Source: Candidatus Thiothrix putei | GTDB taxonomy: Bacteria; Pseudomonadota; Gammaproteobacteria; Thiotrichales; Thiotrichaceae | Direction: 5' to 3' | Length of the DNA stretch: 64,000 nucleotides | NCBI GenBank assembly: GCA_029972225.1 | Contig: CP124756.1 | Location: 2,524,001 to 2,588,000, forward strand | In this document: one piece after another, positions 508 to 10,724 of the stretch | Layout: every line of letters starts with the position of its first letter | Numbering within the stretch: the first letter of the stretch is position 1 | Notes under the pieces: model-generated | Seen by the model: the letters and a program-made list of their open reading frames with translations, nothing else | Told to the model about the DNA's origin: nothing | The model's database searches: none | Translations under genes and position numbers: made by a program

Positions 508-2778
<2,271 letters not shown>

Positions 2779-3111
2779 CTATACAGCAGATTTACACCAC
2801 CCGCCCAACAAACGCCCAACTTCTTCCAGCAAACGGCTGGCGTGTTCAAAGCGGCGTGTGTCCAGTAGCGTTAGGTCGTGGCTGAGGCGCAAGTAAAAAC
2901 GTAGCTGTTTGAGTTTTACATCCGCCTGTTTGAGGGCGTTGGTTTGTTGCGTCTTATCGGTTGCCTGATACAGGCATTCCATGAAATCCATCGCCGTGGT
3001 TTGCAGGCGTTCGGTGACAACAAAGCGTTGAGTGCGAGGAAATTTAACGGTTTGGGGAATTAGCCAACGGATAAAATCGTAGCTTTTGGCAAATAAAGGG
3101 GATTCTTTCAT
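2779..3111 (-). CDS. avd: Retroelement accessory protein Avd
   Basis: A 110-residue, highly helical protein matching the four-helix-bundle Avd family that binds the DGR reverse transcriptase and the template RNA during mutagenic cDNA synthesis. Supporting features are the small size, basic character (many Arg/Lys on amphipathic helices, for example KQLRFYLRLSHDL) and the ATGA overlap with the stop codon of the reverse transcriptase gene upstream, indicating translational coupling. In Bordetella phage BPP-1, Avd is essential for mutagenic retrohoming; the same role is inferred here. The C-terminus (RLLGGWCKSAV) is short and not conserved in any way I recognise. Confidence 0.87.
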   Translation of the reverse strand: MKESPLFAKSYDFIRWLIPQTVKFPRTQRFVVTERLQTTAMDFMECLYQATDKTQQTNALKQADVKLKQLRFYLRLSHDLTLLDTRRFEHASRLLEEVGRLLGGWCKSAV

Positions 3112-4202
3112 GCAGCTTGGCGCCCGCTTCCCGTTACCTTGCGCACGGGTACAGGCTTGGCAAACAAACTACGCCGCAAACCCCACGTATCGGCGCGTTT
3201 CACGTGCGCCACCCAACCCTGAATACGCTGGTTCAAATCTTCACGGCTTAACTCACCTCGCGCATATTCGCGGTAATAACGCTGTAAACGCCGTTGGAAA
3301 TTCACCCCATTTTTGCGCTTGAGGCGGCGATGGTCGGTATAAAGGCGGAAGCCGAGAAACGGGATACCACTGGTAACGGGATAGACCGTGCTGGATTTTT
3401 CATGCAACGCAAGGCGCAAGCCAAACAGGAATTCGCGGATGGCGGTTTTCCATTGCCACAATTGCGCTTTGCTATCGGCAAACAGCAGAAAATCATCCAC
3501 ATAGCGGACATAACCCCGACAACCTAATTCACGCTTCACAAACTGATCAAGTTCGTTAAGGTAAACATTCGCCCAAAACTGGCTGGTGAGGTTGCCGATG
3601 GGTAGCCCACGCGGACGGTTGACGGCGAACAGATCATCGCTGGGAAAATACACCATCTGATATTCACCCGTGAGAATGCCTTCACCGCTTTTGACGATTT
3701 GGCGCATCAGCCAACGGATTTTTTCGTCGGTGATTTTGCGGTAGAGCAGCGATTCCATCACTGCGTGGTCGATGCTGGGGAAGAATTGGCGCAGGTCACA
3801 TTGCAGCACGTAGGGGTAACGCCGCATCAGGGTTTGGGCTTTGTCGATGGCGGCGTGTGTGCCTTTGCCCTTGCGGTTGGCGTAGGAGTCGCCGATAAAG
3901 GTATTGTCGTAAATCGCTTCGGTGATGTTGTGTAGGGCGTGATGCACTACCCGATCACGGAATGGCGCGGCGGATACCAGCCGTTTTTTAGGGTCGCGGA
4001 TGTAGAAAGAATAGTATTCGCCCGGTTGCCACGTCTGGTCAGTTAATTCGCGTTTTAGGCGGATCAACTCATCGGCAAGGTTCATCTCGAAGCTGGCGGC
4101 AGCGGGACAGCCACGCTTGCCCTTCGCGGCTTTTTGCCAAGCAGCGTAGAGGTTGCTGAATTCCAGCAATTGTGGATACAAATTATCAAATACTTTTGCC
4201 AT
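3108..4202 (-). CDS. DGR reverse transcriptase
   Basis: A 364-residue reverse transcriptase. Motifs in order: VVHHALHNI (86-93) and GDSYANRKGKGTH (104-116) in the fingers, LQCDLRQFFPSI (133-144) carrying the first catalytic Asp, GLPIGNLTSQF (199-209), catalytic YVDD (234-237) and FLGFRLY (282-288). The SQ ending of the GLPIGNLTSQ motif, where retroviral and most group II intron enzymes have QG, is the diagnostic DGR feature linked to adenine-specific infidelity. There is no maturase or endonuclease domain, which argues against a group II intron enzyme. It copies the template repeat RNA into cDNA that replaces the VR. The gene lies 158 bp downstream of the VR-bearing gene and overlaps avd by 4 bp. 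Confidence 0.96.
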   Translation of the reverse strand: MAKVFDNLYPQLLEFSNLYAAWQKAAKGKRGCPAAASFEMNLADELIRLKRELTDQTWQPGEYYSFYIRDPKKRLVSAAPFRDRVVHHALHNITEAIYDNTFIGDSYANRKGKGTHAAIDKAQTLMRRYPYVLQCDLRQFFPSIDHAVMESLLYRKITDEKIRWLMRQIVKSGEGILTGEYQMVYFPSDDLFAVNRPRGLPIGNLTSQFWANVYLNELDQFVKRELGCRGYVRYVDDFLLFADSKAQLWQWKTAIREFLFGLRLALHEKSSTVYPVTSGIPFLGFRLYTDHRRLKRKNGVNFQRRLQRYYREYARGELSREDLNQRIQGWVAHVKRADTWGLRRSLFAKPVPVRKVTGSGRQAA

Positions 4203-4215
4203 AACTTTTGCGCGT

Positions 4216-4230
4216 CGCCGCTACGCGGCG
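4216..4230. promoter_or_regulatory. Hairpin just upstream of the reverse transcriptase start
   Basis: A perfect 6-bp stem CGCCGC (4216-4221) and GCGGCG (4225-4230) with a 3-base loop lies 13 bases before the reverse transcriptase ATG on the minus strand. It sits in the 158-bp gap between the VR and the reverse transcriptase gene. It could modulate reverse transcriptase translation or act as a target-site hairpin of the sort found downstream of VRs in other DGRs, although here it is about 120 bp from the VR end. The function is inference. Confidence 0.4.
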
Positions 4231-4353
4231 TTCGTTACCCAACTTCACCGTTATCTCATTGAACCAACAGCCTGCCAAACTGAACGTTTTAGTATTCAGA
4301 AGAGCAGGAATCAGCAGTCAGCATACCAGTACCCAGCACCTCAGCATAGCCAG

Positions 4354-4478
4354 GGAGAACTCAACAACCTAACAACAAACGAAAACCCAGATTGAGGTCC
4401 CGAATGTCAGGATGATACCTGTAACGAATCGCGCACCGCACGAAGTCGGCAGAATAGTACCAAGAACCCCCGCGAGTT
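4354..4478 (-). repeat. DGR variable repeat (VR)
   Basis: 125 bp that align without gaps to 7674-7798 (offset exactly 3320). There are 13 mismatches at 4395, 4396, 4399, 4400, 4404, 4408, 4417, 4423, 4443, 4444, 4450, 4456 and 4459. In every case the TR has T on the plus strand, that is A on the coding strand. The VR encodes residues 895-932 of the NACHT protein, ends beyond its stop codon, and changes 10 residues relative to the TR: 901, 902, 904, 906, 913, 915, 918, 919, 921 and 922. One further change is silent (CGA to CGG). The last 41 bp on the coding strand are identical in both repeats and would contain the initiation of mutagenic homing sequence. Confidence 0.97.
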
Positions 4479-7159
4479 ATCTTATAATCAATTTTATCTA
4501 TCAAGTTGCGTTCATTTTCCTGCCTTTCCCATTCGGCGTAGGTAAATTCAGGGCTACCAAAATCACTCCCCCAACGGCTGCTTGTCCACTCCCAGACATT
4601 GCCACTCATATCATGCAAGCCAAATGCCTTACCCGCTGGAAACATTCCCACTGCTGATGTACGCTTTAATTCGGTATCCTTATAGTTGCCCAGTTTAGGG
4701 TCAGGGTCAGATCCCCACGCATAACGTAAATCTTGCTTCCCACGCGCTGCATACTCCCATTCCGCTTCGGTGGGCAAACGAATTTTCAAGCACTCAATCT
4801 CACCCTCAGGCTTTACATCATCAAGCAAGTCATTCAGCCACACGCTGTAAGCCAGCGCCTCAAACCACGACACCCCAACAACTGGGTGATTATCCAGATT
4901 CCACTGTTTGTCATTCCAGTAATACGGCTGGAAGCGTTTTTTATCGTTTTTCAGCCACTTCCTGTAAGCCTCCCTACTGTCTTCAGGAAATGTCTCCAGC
5001 AGATTTTCACCGACCATTTCCCCGGCAAGCCACAAACCAGCGGCTTCCGGCAGTCTTTCGTGCCAAAAGGCTTGATCTTCGTACATCCCAGCTTCGATAA
5101 AACAACGGTATTGGGCATTGGTGACAGGATAACGGCTGATGAAAAAGCGCGGTAACGTGACATCGTGGGCTGGTTTTTCATCGTCATAACCTTCATCCCC
5201 TTCTGTCCCCATACGGAATGTACCTGTTGGGATTTCCTGCCAGTCAATGTCGGGGACGGTGCGCTGATTATCCTGCGTTTTTTTCACTGTGACACCGGGA
5301 CGTGTATCGCCAATATCGCTAAGGATGCGCCCTGCTTTAGCGCGATCCTGCATGTCTGCTTCACCATCACGCATCAGGTCAACTAAACCATGCCGAATCT
5401 TCTGTGTTATCGCGTTACCTAGCGGGGCTGCCCCCACATCGTTCAATACCTCACCCGCAAACAACACATACTGCGATTCGCCGATAGCCAACAGTTTTTC
5501 CAGAATCGCTTTCGCTTTCTTCTGATCAGAATTCACCGCAGCGATAACACCCAATGACAACAGCAGGGTTTCTTTCCAATGTTCCGCTTGACCTAACAGT
5601 TCGGGGATTTTTTCAAACAATACCTCTTTTTCTTCCAATGCCAGCCCAAAACCTGCCAAGTATTCCTCAAACGTCAAATGGATAAAGCCGTATTGCTGAT
5701 GCCCTCTCTCAATCAGCAGATTGGAATATTCATGAACGGATACCAGAAAACCCTTGGCTTGTTCAACAGCTTCGCGTTTGGAATACTCCTCTTCGGTTCG
5801 ATAATACCGCTCCAAATAAGCGCGTATCGCTGTTTCGTTGATCAAACCACCCTGCGGATTGGTTTCACGCAAATGCAATGCCAGTTTTGCCAGCAAACTT
5901 TGTGTGGAACTCAGGTCAATATCGGGGCCAATCTGCCGACCGTCAAGATTACGGTTTTTCTTCCAACTGCCCAGCAATGTCCGCATATAGAGGCTATACA
6001 ATTCAACCCGACGGTGCGGCAAGGTTACGCCCAATCGCTTAATAAGTGCCAACATCGAAGCCAATAAGGGGTTACTGGCAAGCCGCCGGATTCCCTCGTT
6101 ATGCTCAACGACTTGTAACAGGGTTTGTAACTCCTGCTCTGCCAAACGTCGGGCATGGGCGTTATCTTTGCCCTGCGCCCATGCCAATTCCACCGCCAAG
6201 GTAAAGACGTTGAAAAAACGCCCAATTTCTTCGCCATTCCAGTCATTCAATGCCACCGTCTGCCAACGCGGATCACTCAAAGGACAGTCACGGTAGCCCA
6301 CAAAACGGCTAGTAACGACCATACGATTACCGCTTTTCCGGTCACTTTGCGGGCTAGGAATCCATACCCGCACAAAATCTTCTACCAGTGAAACCACTTG
6401 CCCACGATTGTCACCCACCTCATCCAAGCCATCCATCAGAATAAAGGCTTTACCCTGTTCCAGCGCCGTATCAAACAGAAGACGTAATTTGTTGCCCTGT
6501 AACTGTGTTAACTTACCTTGAAAATACTGGGGCAGAAAATCTTGAAAGCTGATGTTTTGACGTTCCAAGGCTTCACTGTAAGCATTCAGCGGCAGCAAGA
6601 TAGGCAACGGCGCATCCTCACGTTGTGCCAACCCTAACGCCAAACGCTTCATGCTGGTGGATTTGCCGCTACCGGGATCACCCAAGATCACCAATGCCTG
6701 TTGCCCATTGATCCATTGTTCCACGGGCAACGCGGCAGCATCCGCCCGTAAGATTTCTTGTTCTATCTTGTCAGGGTCTACATCTGATACAGCCTTTGAA
6801 CCACAATAATAACGCCCCGCCTTGCGATGCCAAGACTCACCATCCGGCGTATCCAGACGGGCGCGGAGTGGCACATACACCGATTCAAGCTTAACCCCAA
6901 CCGCCCCAAAGTTTTTTGCTGCCTCAACAATGCCATCCATGCCCTTGAAACTTAAATAATTGTAGGCTTCGACAATATAGCGGCGGTAGATAGCAAGCTG
7001 CTGTTGCAATTCCTCATCGCTAAACTGCGGGCTGGCGTGTTCACCGTAGATATTGATGACCAGCTTTTCGATGGTGTGTTTGTCACCCTGTACGAAGTCC
7101 TGATCGACTTCGACCTTATCCTTGAAAATCGTACCCGCTTTATCCAGCATCTCTGCCAC
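4361..7159 (-). CDS. NACHT NTPase with variable FGE/C-type-lectin-like domain (DGR target)
   Basis: A 932-residue STAND-type sensor candidate. Residues 15-30 form a short Val/Asp/Lys motif. Residues 50-75 (YRRYIVEAYNYLSFKGMD) resemble the segment common before NACHT domains. The NACHT module has Walker A GDPGSGKST (160-168), Walker B FILMDGLDEV (239-248) and sensor region VVTSRFVGY. A helical region (about 350-620) follows. Residues 637-932 are a formylglycine-generating-enzyme-like domain (GTFRMGTEGDEG, YPVTNAQY, RLPTEAEWEYAARG, GNVWEWTSS, RGGSW, LGFRLL), the fold that carries VRs in many DGR targets. By analogy, ligand binding by the variable C-terminus would trigger NTP-dependent oligomerisation; the signal and output are unknown. 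The start overlaps the upstream membrane protein gene by 20 bp; an alternative ATG lies 3 codons in. Confidence 0.93.
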   Translation of the reverse strand: MAEMLDKAGTIFKDKVEVDQDFVQGDKHTIEKLVINIYGEHASPQFSDEELQQQLAIYRRYIVEAYNYLSFKGMDGIVEAAKNFGAVGVKLESVYVPLRARLDTPDGESWHRKAGRYYCGSKAVSDVDPDKIEQEILRADAAALPVEQWINGQQALVILGDPGSGKSTSMKRLALGLAQREDAPLPILLPLNAYSEALERQNISFQDFLPQYFQGKLTQLQGNKLRLLFDTALEQGKAFILMDGLDEVGDNRGQVVSLVEDFVRVWIPSPQSDRKSGNRMVVTSRFVGYRDCPLSDPRWQTVALNDWNGEEIGRFFNVFTLAVELAWAQGKDNAHARRLAEQELQTLLQVVEHNEGIRRLASNPLLASMLALIKRLGVTLPHRRVELYSLYMRTLLGSWKKNRNLDGRQIGPDIDLSSTQSLLAKLALHLRETNPQGGLINETAIRAYLERYYRTEEEYSKREAVEQAKGFLVSVHEYSNLLIERGHQQYGFIHLTFEEYLAGFGLALEEKEVLFEKIPELLGQAEHWKETLLLSLGVIAAVNSDQKKAKAILEKLLAIGESQYVLFAGEVLNDVGAAPLGNAITQKIRHGLVDLMRDGEADMQDRAKAGRILSDIGDTRPGVTVKKTQDNQRTVPDIDWQEIPTGTFRMGTEGDEGYDDEKPAHDVTLPRFFISRYPVTNAQYRCFIEAGMYEDQAFWHERLPEAAGLWLAGEMVGENLLETFPEDSREAYRKWLKNDKKRFQPYYWNDKQWNLDNHPVVGVSWFEALAYSVWLNDLLDDVKPEGEIECLKIRLPTEAEWEYAARGKQDLRYAWGSDPDPKLGNYKDTELKRTSAVGMFPAGKAFGLHDMSGNVWEWTSSRWGSDFGSPEFTYAEWERQENERNLIDKIDYKITRGGSWYYSADFVRCAIRYRYHPDIRDLNLGFRLLLGC

Positions 7160-7481
7160 CGTGAATTACCTTGTCACGCCCCACAAGGTCGCCCCTCACA
7201 TCAACCTTGCCGTGAAAGGTAGTGCTGGTTGTGGAAGTATCCGTACTTTGAGGGCTGGTTTCTGATTTCCCCTCAATAAACACTTTAACAGCGGTGAGAA
7301 TACCACCGAGAATTCCCAACACCTTAGCGCCAGTCTCGACCAACCAAGTAATCTGTTCCCGACCTGCTTGATCAAGCGTCAAAATATGCTGAGTCAAAGC
7401 AAAAATGTCATCCGCAAAATAAAACGCCACACCAGCCAATAAAGCAAATACCCAAATAACGATAATCAAACGCCACGTCAT
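7140..7481 (-). CDS. Small membrane protein of the DGR operon
   Basis: I place the start at the ATG at 7481 because GGAGG lies 8 bases upstream; an in-frame ATG at 7529 would add 16 residues without a comparable site. The 113-residue product has a transmembrane segment at about 4-22 and a second hydrophobic helix at about 53-69. A Ser/Thr-rich linker (73-88) is followed by a C-terminal stretch KVDVRGDLVGRDKVIH (92-107). That stretch resembles residues 15-30 of the NACHT protein encoded next (KVEVDQDFVQGDKHTI). Translational overlap and the shared motif suggest that it anchors the NACHT sensor at the membrane or is its effector. It belongs to no family I can name. Confidence 0.72.
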   Translation of the reverse strand: MTWRLIIVIWVFALLAGVAFYFADDIFALTQHILTLDQAGREQITWLVETGAKVLGILGGILTAVKVFIEGKSETSPQSTDTSTTSTTFHGKVDVRGDLVGRDKVIHGGRDAG

Positions 7482-7673
7482 CACGATTTCCTCCACATCC
7501 ACCACCATAAAAACCCCGCACCGCGCCACTCAAGACAGGATGCGGGAAAGTTTCGCTATTTGACCGGAGGGCAAACCGTCGCGATCCGGGTCGGGACAAG
7601 CTGGCTGTTGGCATTGCACCACCGTCGGCTATCCGTGGATACACCGCACTGCCGGGTACAAGCCGTTGACTAT

Positions 7674-7798
7674 GGAGAACTCAACAACCTAACAACAAAC
7701 GAAAACCCAGATTGTTGTTTCGATTGTTAGGATGATTCCTGTTACGAATCGCGCACCGCACGTTGTCGGTAGAATTGTTCCAAGAACCCCCGCGAGTT
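7674..7798 (-). ncRNA. DGR template repeat (TR)
   Basis: The non-coding donor copy of the VR, 125 bp, read on the minus strand. Its conceptual frame is rich in AAC and AAT codons (W-N-N-S-T-D-N ... [15 protein letters not shown]), exactly the codons that adenine mutagenesis diversifies best. Between the Trp and the conserved Leu there are 26 adenines, of which 13 are substituted in the VR. It lies upstream of the target operon rather than between target and reverse transcriptase. It would be transcribed as the 5' leader of the operon or as a separate RNA. The 190 bp between TR and the membrane protein start (7482-7673) contain no convincing gene and may be the structured spacer needed for cDNA priming. 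Confidence 0.95.
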
Positions 7799-7877
7799 GC
7801 CCCAACCCGCCGTTAATCTGACCGATAAACGGTGATTTTGCAAACACTAATTGCCAAACAAATCGCTGTCATCTACC

Positions 7878-7891
7878 ATGATAACCATCAT
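7878..7891. promoter_or_regulatory. Candidate VapB operator
   Basis: A short inverted repeat, ATGAT (7878-7882) and ATCAT (7887-7891), lies 18-31 bases upstream of the vapB start. Antitoxin-toxin complexes of this class typically autorepress by binding palindromes in the leader. The assignment rests on position and symmetry only. Confidence 0.3.
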
Positions 7892-7908
7892 CAAACCGGA
7901 GATTTACC

Positions 7909-8139
7909 ATGCCGCAAACAGCCAGATTATTCATGTCAGGGCGTAGCCAAGCGGTACGCCTACCCAAACAATTCCGTTTTCAAGGTAACGAAGTCTTCAT
8001 TCGGCGCGTTGGTGATCAAATTATCCTCTCACCCAAGCCTGCAAGCTGGGACGATTTTTTCAACGACACGCAACGTCCCACCGCCGATTTCATGGCTGAA
8101 CGGGTAGATTTGCCACCGCAAGAACGGGTGTTGTTCTGA
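7909..8139 (+). CDS. vapB: AbrB-fold antitoxin VapB
   Basis: A 76-residue antitoxin. The N-terminal half has the swapped-hairpin DNA-binding pattern of VagC/VapB proteins (ARLFMSGRSQAVRLPKQFRF, then EVFIRRVGDQIILSPKP). The C-terminal half (SWDDFFND ... DFMAERVDLPPQERVLF) is the usual toxin-wrapping tail. GGAG lies 7 bases upstream of the start. The stop codon shares one base with the vapC start (TGATG), so the pair is translationally coupled. It would neutralise VapC and repress the operon. Confidence 0.93.
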   Translation: MPQTARLFMSGRSQAVRLPKQFRFQGNEVFIRRVGDQIILSPKPASWDDFFNDTQRPTADFMAERVDLPPQERVLF

Positions 8140-8540
8140 TGAAACGTTACATGCTAGACACGGATACGAGCAGCTACATCATTAAAAATCGCCCTGCGCA
8201 AGTTGCTGAGCGTTTCCGCACCCTAAAAATGGAGCAGCTCTGCATTTCCGTCATTACCTACGCAGAATTGCTATACGGTGTGGAATGCTCATCCTCAGAA
8301 CGGGTAAACCGCCCCATCATCGAAAATTTCGTCGCGCATCTGGATGTATTGGATTGGGATAAAGACGCAGCCGACCACTATTCTCGCGTCCGTACCCAAC
8401 TGGAGCGCAACGGTACACCCATCGGCGGCATGGATATGCAAATCGGTAGTCATGCCCTCAGCCAAGGCATTATTTTAGTCACCAACAATACGCAGCACTT
8501 TGAACGGATTATCGGTCTGCAACTCGAAACGTGGGTGTAA
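8139..8540 (+). CDS. vapC: PIN-domain ribonuclease toxin VapC
   Basis: A 133-residue PIN-domain protein with the acidic active-site set Asp7 (MLDTDTSSYII), Glu43 (YAELLYG) and Asp99 (GGMDMQIGSHAL), plus TNNTQHF near the end. VapC toxins are Mg-dependent ribonucleases that usually cut initiator tRNA or rRNA; the target here cannot be told from sequence. It is coupled to vapB. Its last 66 bp overlap the 3' end of the convergent tilS, which is unusual and suggests that the cassette arrived next to tilS and one or both C-termini were remodelled. Confidence 0.93.
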   Translation: MKRYMLDTDTSSYIIKNRPAQVAERFRTLKMEQLCISVITYAELLYGVECSSSERVNRPIIENFVAHLDVLDWDKDAADHYSRVRTQLERNGTPIGGMDMQIGSHALSQGIILVTNNTQHFERIIGLQLETWV

Positions 8541-9761
8541 ACCGATCAACCGCTCCCCCACATACACCAACGGCAAGCGCTCTCGCTCCCACGGCGGTAC
8601 ACCCCACTCTTGCAACAAATGCTTAAGACTATGATACCCGCCGCGCTCTGGCAGATACACGCTTTCCCCACCCTGTCGAAAACGTACCGTCACGACTTCA
8701 GGATACCCCGCCCCCGCCACCAAGGCGCGCCCCAGCGACGCAATCACCAACGGCTCGCGCGTATCCCACACAAATACTTGCTTAGGGTCATGCGCAGACA
8801 ATGGCAACATTGCATACACATCATCCCGATAACGGCGAACTTCACAACTATCCCAGTGCACACACGGCGTAGCATCCGCCCGCGCTTGCAACACATCGTG
8901 CAACACTTGACGCAGCTTTTTCTCTTCCGGCAAACGAAAACCGCGCTGTGCTAACCATTCGCGCAACACCGCTTTTTGCATTGACGGCTCTTCTGCCAGC
9001 AACTTACTCACTGACAACGTATTAGGCTGTTTTCCTTGCATCAACTGGAGCTTATCGCGCAAAAAACCAGCCAATAAGGTACGGCTTTCACCCTGCAACC
9101 GCGCCGCCCGCGCCAAGGTCTTACCCGCCGCAGACCAACGCTGTTCCAGCAACGGCATCACCTGATTGCGCAAAAAATTGCGATCAAAGCGGCTGTCTAG
9201 ATTGCTAGGGTCATCTATAACATTCAACCGATGTTGTTTCGCATACGCCGCCAATTCCGCACGGCTACATCCCAATAACGGTCGCCCCAAAAAACCCATC
9301 GCGAAAGTGCGAATTTCCGGCATTGCCGCCAACCCATCCACGCCACTTCCGCGCAGCAAATGCAGCAACAAGGTTTCCGCCTGATCATTCTGATGATGCG
9401 CGGTCAACACAAGTTCACCCGCTTGCAAGTGTTTGCTGAAAGCTGCATACCGCGCCGTCCGCGCCACCGCTTCCACACTTGACCCCGCCGGAATTACCAA
9501 TTGCAAGGTTTCAACCAGCAGTGGCATTTCCAAATCGGCACACACCGCATGGCAATGCGCCGCCCATGCCGCAGACATCGCCTGCAAACCGTGATCAATG
9601 TGCAGGGCGCGAAAGGATAAATGAGGGTATTGCCCGCGCAGACCCGCACAGGCGTGAAGCAATACATGCGAATCCAGCCCTCCACTGAAACCAATCAGAT
9701 AACTAGGTGCTGGATGTTGTTGAAAAAACCGTAATAAATGCTCAGCAGGGGCGCATGGCAT
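8475..9761 (-). CDS. tilS: tRNA(Ile)-lysidine synthase TilS
   Basis: Converts C34 of tRNA-Ile(CAU) to lysidine using ATP and lysine, which changes codon reading from AUG to AUA. The PP-loop SGGLDS is at 26-31. The N-terminal ATPase domain includes LTAHHQNDQAET and LRGSGVDGL, followed by the substrate-binding and C-terminal domains (VPPWERERLPLVYVGE). At 428 residues it is of normal family length. The final 20 or so residues, after LIGLHPRFE, are encoded inside the vapC overlap and may not be ancestral. The gene ends the minus-strand run beginning at accA, 9 bp downstream of it. Confidence 0.96.
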   Translation of the reverse strand: MPCAPAEHLLRFFQQHPAPSYLIGFSGGLDSHVLLHACAGLRGQYPHLSFRALHIDHGLQAMSAAWAAHCHAVCADLEMPLLVETLQLVIPAGSSVEAVARTARYAAFSKHLQAGELVLTAHHQNDQAETLLLHLLRGSGVDGLAAMPEIRTFAMGFLGRPLLGCSRAELAAYAKQHRLNVIDDPSNLDSRFDRNFLRNQVMPLLEQRWSAAGKTLARAARLQGESRTLLAGFLRDKLQLMQGKQPNTLSVSKLLAEEPSMQKAVLREWLAQRGFRLPEEKKLRQVLHDVLQARADATPCVHWDSCEVRRYRDDVYAMLPLSAHDPKQVFVWDTREPLVIASLGRALVAGAGYPEVVTVRFRQGGESVYLPERGGYHSLKHLLQEWGVPPWERERLPLVYVGERLIGLHPRFELQTDNPFKVLRIVGD

Positions 9762-9770
9762 ACGCCCTCC

Positions 9771-10724
9771 CTATTCCTCAAACTGCCCAAAGCCCATAAT
9801 GCGCTGATAACGTTTATCCAGCAGCTTATCGAGGTTCATGGTTTTAAGATTGCGTAAATTAGCCTCTAACGCTTCACCGATATGTTGCGCCGCTGCTTCC
9901 ATATCACGGTGCGCTCCGCCCAATGGCTCAGGAATAATCTGCTCAATTAAACCCAACGATTTCAGACGATCGGCGGTAATGCCCATCGCATCCGCCGCAT
10001 CCGCCGCTTTTTCAGCGCTTTTCCACAAGATCGACGCGCAACCTTCCGGCGAAATCACCGAGTACGTCGCGTATTGCAACATCATCACCCGGTCGCCCAC
10101 CCCAATGGCTAATGCACCGCCCGAACCGCCTTCGCCCACCACGGTACAAATAATCGGGGTACGCAATTTCGCCATTTCGTACAAATTGCGGGCAATCGCC
10201 TCACTTTGACCGCGCTCTTCCGCGCCGATACCGGGGTATGCGCCGGGCGTGTCGATAAAGGTAATAATCGGCAGTTGGAATTTTTCCGCCATCCGCATCA
10301 AACGCAAGGCTTTGCGATACCCTTCTGGTCGCGGCATACCGAAGTTGCGCTTGATATTTTCATTGGTATCGCGGCCTTTCTGATGCCCAATGACCATCAC
10401 TGACTGACCACGAAACCGTGCCATGCCGCCAATAATCGCCTTATCATCGGCAAAGGCACGATCACCGTGCAATTCTTTGAAATCCGTGAATAAATAACGG
10501 ATCAAGTCCAGCGTATACGGGCGTTTGGGATGACGCGCAAGCTGCGAAATCTGACGCGGGGTCAGTTTGGAAAAAATGGAACGTGTCAACGAGGCAGCTT
10601 TTTCTTCCAGCTTGCCAATCTCTTCGCTCAGGTTAATTTCAGCGTCACCGACGTAACGCAGCTCTTCGATCTTCGCCTGTAATTCGGCAATCGGTTGTTC
10701 AAAATCCAGAAAATCCGGGTTCAT
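9771..10724 (-). CDS. accA: Acetyl-CoA carboxylase carboxyltransferase subunit alpha
   Basis: The 317-residue alpha subunit of the carboxyltransferase that moves CO2 from biotin to acetyl-CoA, giving malonyl-CoA in the committed step of fatty acid synthesis. Recognisable stretches are [19 protein letters not shown] at the start, then [37 protein letters not shown] and the oxyanion region [14 protein letters not shown], ending [14 protein letters not shown]. Length and both termini match family norms. accD lies elsewhere. The gene is followed 9 bp later by tilS, a common gammaproteobacterial neighbour. Confidence 0.97.

Follow-up and report, generated by a model that had tools for sequence, protein, structure and literature searches.

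Diversity-generating retroelements (DGRs) that diversify putative NACHT/STAND-FGE antigen sensors (Dore et al., 2024; PMC10907252) are the closest described systems to the locus reported here and share with it the target architecture, a reverse transcriptase (RT) with an accessory protein, and adenine mutagenesis. KAP and other NTPases are also found among the DGR targets in the covered parts of that paper, which describes modular targets, so that the modularity of DGR targets is already known. The position of the template repeat (TR) is not discussed in the parts of the paper covered here, and the word "promoter" is absent from its main text. In the DGR of the Bordetella phage BPP-1, according to the sections considered (PMC12875486), the components follow the order avd-TR-spacer-RT, and the structured spacer recruits RT-Avd and primes cDNA synthesis. 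A reconstituted BPP-1 DGR with the TR-RNA on its own strong promoter, and with more RT too, was 35-fold more active (PMC12875486). Variable component order is known from the DiGReF survey, whose authors, in the part covered, argued from it for separate transcription of the TR; its group 1 has the TR upstream of the RT, as in the present locus, and its subgroups may include the order TR-VR-RT, where VR is the variable repeat (PMC3521204). Our search of the DGR literature gave no statement of a TR ahead of the target operon, with the reservation that Figure 7 of DiGReF may already draw TR-VR-RT, and no DGR paper naming Thiothrix. The TR-first frame around a modular sensor is the part for which we found no published description.

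The window, a 64,000-nt stretch of the Candidatus Thiothrix putei genome (contig CP124756.1), carries a DGR that is transcribed from the minus strand in the order TR, spacer, membrane gene, target with VR, RT and Avd (Table 1). It differs from the sensor DGRs of PMC10907252, as far as the covered parts describe them, in that TR and spacer stand ahead of the whole target operon. As in BPP-1, a TR and then a probably structured spacer precede a coding gene; in contrast to BPP-1, the spacer leads into the target operon, with the RT 3.5 kb away (PMC12875486, sections considered). The first-pass annotation had placed the TR 5' of the entire operon and on the strand of the RT, which agrees with our coordinates: 3.47 kb separate the TR end from the RT start (4202).

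Table 1. Features of the TR-first DGR and its upstream neighbour (window coordinates).
Feature	Coordinates	Strand	Basis
VapBC-type toxin-antitoxin pair, divergent	7909..8540	+	MazE-type antitoxin and PIN (Pfam); VapC
DGR template repeat (TR)	7670..7798	-	125-129 nt match to VR; 13-15 mismatches, all at TR adenines
Probable structured spacer RNA (Sp), helices P1, P2, P3 and terminal P4	7509..7669	-	identity with L024 and consensus fold
CAAATA motif, 5' of P4, common to many DGR spacers	7557..7562	-	motif picked after spacer inspection
Terminal spacer hairpin P4	7514..7547	-	match to covariance model R1 and folding
T-tract after P4 (TTTTT), intrinsic-terminator-like	7509..7513	-	sequence reading; T enrichment across the family
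Small protein with N-terminal membrane segment, first operon gene, 113 aa	7140..7481	-	segment by eye
DGR target, 932 aa: NACHT NTPase and C-terminal FGE-sulfatase (C-type-lectin-like)	4361..7159	-	Pfam
Variable repeat (VR), target C-terminus	4350..4478	-	TR/VR alignment
DGR reverse transcriptase (RT)	3108..4202	-	IGNLTSQ and YVDD motifs
Avd accessory protein	2779..3111	-	NF033474 5.8e-31; PF22296 2e-21

The range 7482-7798 divides into the TR (129 nt) and a gene-free spacer of 188 nt (7669-7482). Since the best start of the membrane gene is the ATG at 7481, with a Shine-Dalgarno sequence GGAGG at 7494-7490, the spacer is the leader of this gene, whose product gave no Pfam match above cut-off. 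The target matched NACHT (2.8e-7; 30.9 bits against a cut-off of 26.7) and FGE-sulfatase (1.1e-59, residues 642-929) in Pfam and hence joins a NACHT NTPase domain to a sensor (FGE) domain, the combination that marks STAND/NACHT anti-phage defence proteins. A comparison of the target with PADLOC (E 0.001) matched no described defence system, and the NCBIfam model EruA reached merely 19 bits against a cut-off of 1000. The RT alignment contains both DGR motifs, (I/V/L)GxxxSQ and YxDD, as defined in the covered part of PMC3521204, and Avd scored 106.9 bits with NF033474 (cut-off 80). On the upstream side, the VapBC-type pair bounds the possible TR promoter region to 7799-7908.

Over 125 nt, TR (7674-7798) and VR (4354-4478) differ at 13 positions, all 13 at TR adenines (8 A to T, 4 to G and 1 to C); with adenine accounting for 30 of the 125 TR letters, a simple binomial estimate for adenine-only mismatches is about 5e-10. 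A DGR finder extended the pair to 7670-7798 and 4350-4478, where 15 of 15 mismatches are at a template adenine. As judged from this signature, the minus-strand segment 7670-7798 is a genuine DGR template repeat. The VR lies in the FGE fold at the C-terminus of the target, as is characteristic of a DGR. The TR codons before the stop hold 28 adenines, 26 of them in codon positions 1-2, and no codon is convertible to a stop; adenine mutagenesis would allow about 10^15.5 proteins. A DNA search of the whole 4.28-Mb genome (E 0.001) returned the TR and VR copies only and therefore no second TR for this DGR, neither next to the RT, where it would have spoken against the layout proposed in the first-pass annotation, nor elsewhere. 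In the two other loci with this layout, L024 and L025, 21 of 23 and 20 of 20 mismatches are at TR adenines. Because the TR/VR differences fall on adenines in all three loci, retrohoming very probably worked in the TR-first layout.

The order TR-VR-RT is rare: it occurs in 3 of 88 DGR loci with a detectable TR/VR pair (the window, L024 and L025; 57 + 30 + window, sets not de-duplicated against each other), and the remaining 85 have another order, in line with the earlier expectation that TRs usually sit elsewhere. A TR beyond the fetched stretch would be missed in this survey. The first set comprised the nearest 80 of at least 569 RT relatives in genome contigs and was restricted to pairs on the RT strand, with tandem-repeat pairs beyond 2400 in L101 dropped; 57 loci had a pair (23 had none), none in the order TR-VR-RT, and VR-RT-TR (26) and VR-TR-RT (21) were commonest. 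The second set, searched at looser thresholds, consisted of 38 loci, drawn from the same genus, family, class and phylum (two of these loci from the own genome) and from two plasmids. Here 30 loci had a pair and 8 had none; TR-VR-RT was found in L024 and L025 only, and in L043 the TR is on the strand opposite to the RT.

L024 (same genus, 97%) and L025 (same family, 74%) also carry the closest RTs among the matches listed, and all other RT searches gave at most 59% identity among the matches listed. RT relatives in phages and plasmids were below 60% identity only, and viral contigs yielded none. In a quick maximum-likelihood search over 87 RTs, with SH-aLRT as the sole support measure, the three TR-first loci form one group (100), with L056 from a Chromatiaceae MAG as sister (96) among other RT-Avd loci. 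Outside the clade, L056 thus has the closest RT on the tree; its Avd follows the RT as in the window, but its TR stands after Avd (VR-RT-Avd-TR) and not in front. Avd follows the RT in the window, L024 and L025, as in most VR-RT-TR loci. Because the RT tree nests the TR-first clade inside a VR-RT-Avd-TR group, TR and spacer most likely moved together from behind Avd to the front of the operon, which amounts to a circular permutation.

The window and L024 share the same chromosomal site, and the flanks align at 79-82% on both sides. We take the neighbouring genes to be tilS and accA on one flank and tadA on the other; next comes a transglutaminase-elicitor gene (Pfam). Between the two loci the VR-RT-Avd block is 90% identical and starts at 4480, within 2 nt of the VR 5' edge (4478); the high identity of the VR follows from retrohoming itself. 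From the TR-spacer block to the VR-RT-Avd block, alignable DNA is limited to patches of 25-76 bp. The two NACHT-FGE proteins are 34% identical, and L024 has an N-terminal extension in place of the window's separate membrane gene. In L025 the target region encodes a KAP NTPase and an FGE protein instead of a NACHT-FGE fusion, and the neighbouring genes differ as far as the short contig shows (by eye). The simplest reading of these alignments is that both ends of the mutagenesis engine stay in place and the sensor between them is replaced. Rapid divergence in place was considered as well and is disfavoured by flanks of 79-82% and a VR-RT-Avd block of 90% beside a patchy target; exchange is preferred.

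Some further differences were seen at these loci. At the place of the VapBC-type pair, L024 (4067-4372) retains 84 bp of the antitoxin region (86% identical) and has a short open reading frame with no match in Pfam. In L025 the KAP NTPase frame stops 51 nt before the start of the FGE protein (9117-9167), which may reflect a split gene or an error of the draft assembly, given that the window and L024 have NTPase and FGE in one protein. In the window, about 96 bp (2650-2745) absent from L024 lie in frame within the first codons of the gene that we take to be tadA and look like an inserted palindromic repeat. This insert overlaps a weak match to MIR848 (32.8 bits against a gathering threshold of 90), which was the sole match of Rfam 15 in window positions 2000-10000 at E up to 1; no family matched the spacer.

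In the TR-spacer region, window positions 7515-7811 and L024 positions 4358-4654 are 95% identical over 297 bp, the highest value among the long aligned blocks, and this conservation begins about 13 nt ahead of the TR and stops at P4. Folding the three TR-first spacers to a consensus gives 45 pairs, of which 8 are changed on both sides, and the single-sequence fold of the window spacer is no better than that of shuffles (z -0.17). At their 3' ends the spacers of many other DGRs are built alike, with a CAAATA-like motif, then an A-rich linker and finally a GC-rich hairpin.

The covariance analysis suggested in the first-pass annotation was made with a covariance model, R1, trained on 36 DGR spacers from which the three TR-first loci were excluded on purpose. 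The underlying motif list was written after inspection of the spacers, and the P4 pairing is therefore partly by construction; 50 of 72 spacers gave a row. For R1, 41 of the 50 were prepared, excluding the TR-first three, L053, L030, L042, L007, and L084 and L103 (fewer than 8 pairs), and 36 of the 41 were used, with L052, L068, L098 and L115 left out for long loops and L090 as a near-copy of L089. As a control, a score of at least 20 was reached by 87.5% of 40 loci (the 50 minus 10 with tails under 95 nt), compared with 3.75% of 800 dinucleotide shuffles, and 30 of the 40 exceeded all 20 of their own shuffles. The L025 hairpin did not rise above shuffles in a simple stem scan (4 of 20 as good). 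Covariation of P4 in the training alignment A2 was 0.537 versus 0.182 in shuffles (0 of 500); A2 is the fairer basis, as alignment A3 was fitted to the model and its counts lean to R1.

R1, although untrained on them, has its best match at the spacer 3' end in each TR-first locus: 16.1 bits in the window (7511-7573, E 0.0077), 21.8 bits in L024 (E 1.7e-4) and 14.8 bits in L025 (E 0.018). L024 also contains a chance-looking match of 15.3 bits, which makes the low end of the R1 scores rough. Taken with the 95% identity over 297 bp and the consensus fold, the model matches suggest that the spacer is probably a structured RNA, as the first-pass annotation had proposed for the gene-free sequence after the TR. 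Over 86 loci R1 gave 56 matches in 55 loci at E up to 0.01. It recovered 34 of its 36 training loci and matched 21 of the 50 loci on which it had not been trained, including a near-copy of a training locus; judged by position, each of these 21 has at least one match within about 1.1 kb of an RT. The sister locus L056 has no R1 match. Two of 17 further loci were matched, both at places matched before, and two of 18 family-level and plasmid loci, of which one had been used in training; R1 covers part of DGR diversity only. As an observation in its own right, the spacers of 55 DGR loci give the template RNA a 3' end made up of CAAATA and a hairpin that shows strong covariation.

A whole-genome R1 scan that kept 150 of 528 candidates listed 10 sites; the window spacer was absent from them and weaker sites were present, and it was probably dropped at the first look. 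At 16 bits its genome-wide E would be near 0.5, which is not significant. The best match in the genome (39.3 bits, E 7e-8) belongs to a spacer outside the training set, in a second DGR (L036 7000-8760; G000:C1 about 2119028-2120759, outside the window). This DGR looks degraded: its RT consists of two separate fragments, one with an internal stop codon, and the opposite strand holds a 136-nt copy of the TR region at 89% identity. A third RT-like fragment (L037; G000:C1 3164000-3180000) is accompanied by a weak 60-nt TR/VR-like pair with 15 adenine and 2 other mismatches, seen at looser thresholds only.

Whether the TR RNA is simply the 5' leader of the target mRNA, as the first-pass annotation had it, depends on the end of the spacer. 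P4 (7547-7514) with its tail folds at -19.9 kcal/mol and is followed directly by TTTTT (7513-7509). The distance from this T-tract to the Shine-Dalgarno sequence is just 14 nt and to the ATG 27 nt, which leaves no room for a promoter wholly 3' of P4 and the T-tract; L024 and L025 likewise have their first start codon near P4 (by eye). Over 58 loci, T is enriched in the 10 nt after P4 relative to what lies further on (p = 2e-5), with T counts of 6, 5 and 5 in the three TR-first loci. At least 5 T in these 10 nt are found in only 16 of 55 loci besides the TR-first ones, and L024 is without an unbroken T-tract after P4 (TCCCTTTC), for which reasons P4 may have been kept for RT binding rather than termination. 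Termination is at most part of its role. P4 also stands 5' of the RT gene in 32 loci of other DGRs (by a coordinate rule in a script). A terminator scan limited to short uninterrupted stems missed P4 and found no site in the window or L024; in L025 it placed a site at the spacer end (10181-10167, sense strand; 1 found, 0.4 expected).

A sigma-70 scan of the sense strand from the upstream neighbour of the TR to the first start codon gave no site in any of the three loci, the best crude promoter scores before the operon were within those of shuffles in all three, and the window's single sense-strand match (7411-7383) falls within the membrane gene. A promoter-like TTTGCA-N17 pattern before the TR was seen in two of the three loci only and with a poor second hexamer, and is not claimed. 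Sequestration of the Shine-Dalgarno sequence by the spacer was suggested by a single fold and dropped, the duplex energies being no better than those of shuffles in the three loci. Taken together, the 5' position of the TR on the same strand and the lack of promoter room fit the leader proposed earlier, while the hairpin and TTTTT at its end do not: a terminator of the TR transcript's own before 7481, named in advance as evidence against a leader, is nearly present in P4 and TTTTT (7547-7509), and a simple uninterrupted leader is not the best reading because the spacer ends in this way. The sequence rather points to transcription that enters through the TR and would be partly stopped at P4. 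Outside support comes from published work on Nostoc punctiforme (PMC12691664), BPP-1 (PMC12875486) and the DiGReF survey (PMC3521204).

We therefore favour, with a probability of about 0.5, the reading that TR and spacer were relocated as one unit and that the TR-spacer RNA mostly ends at P4 while the rest of transcription reads through into the operon. This unit, a single RNA of some 300 nt (about 7811-7509), would have left its place after Avd for the head of the operon. Transcription would start upstream of the TR, and most transcripts would stop at P4 and the T-tract and yield a discrete TR-spacer RNA, which RT-Avd would use in mutagenic retrohoming to the VR, 3.2 kb further downstream. 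The remaining transcripts would read through and encode the membrane protein, the target, RT and Avd. The direction of the relocation, the promoter position, termination, read-through and the coupling of template supply to target expression are all inferred here. A bolder version, which we regard as possible but doubtful, would make the TR-spacer RNA both template and attenuator, with P4 setting how much template RNA is made relative to mRNA for target, RT and Avd, a ratio possibly sensed through RT-Avd binding to the spacer. The cassette, with TR-spacer at one end and VR-RT-Avd at the other, would then also be a platform for receptor exchange, with the repeats flanking and guiding swaps of whole sensor modules.

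Instead of a partly terminated leader, the TR-spacer could be a small RNA gene with its own promoter and terminator, the operon promoter overlapping the spacer or P4 and the order being incidental. P4 with TTTTT does resemble a terminator, the DiGReF authors inferred separate TR RNA transcription in the part of their paper covered (PMC3521204), and in Nostoc punctiforme the TR-RNA is, according to the sections considered, very highly expressed, with RT and Avd below neighbouring genes (PMC12691664). Against it, the T-tract and the Shine-Dalgarno sequence of the window are only 14 nt apart, and promoter-like scores before the operon never exceed shuffles in the three loci; we hold a separate gene to be rather unlikely. 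At the other extreme, one uninterrupted polycistronic transcript would carry the TR RNA as its 5' leader, used in cis or after processing, with P4 as an RT-Avd binding element. The same strand, the lack of an intervening gene, the recurrence of the layout, the missing unbroken T-tract of L024 and the 32 loci in which P4 precedes the RT, and must be read through if the transcript is common to both, all suit such a transcript. The TTTTT right after a strong hairpin in the window and the T enrichment across the family speak against it, and we judge it quite improbable.

Finally, the layout may have arisen neutrally when a cassette was duplicated and then partly lost, the TR being the trailing TR of a lost upstream cassette and the order having no regulatory role; this is compatible with either of the two preceding accounts, so that the estimates do not add up to one. 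Related loci have the order VR-RT-Avd-TR, of which the window order is a circular permutation, and component order is variable among DGRs (PMC3521204, part covered). Against such an origin, the layout has outlived 26% RT divergence and the replacement of the sensor gene, and no remnant of an upstream cassette is seen: each of the three stretches has one Avd match, and G007 and G045 have a single RT match apiece at E 1e-30, although the L025 contig stops 77 nt before the TR and shows little upstream sequence. We consider it unlikely. The relocated, partly terminated TR-spacer unit remains our preferred reading.

In this layout the template would have to be transcribed before the target, which makes the relation between the two testable at one hairpin. 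The window and L024, being syntenic, clearly illustrate a constant mutagenesis engine that encloses an apparently exchanged, defence-like sensor, and for some DGRs the P4 model is a tool for locating where the template RNA ends. With a stop-like hairpin just before the first gene, one RNA may serve as both mutation template and gene switch.
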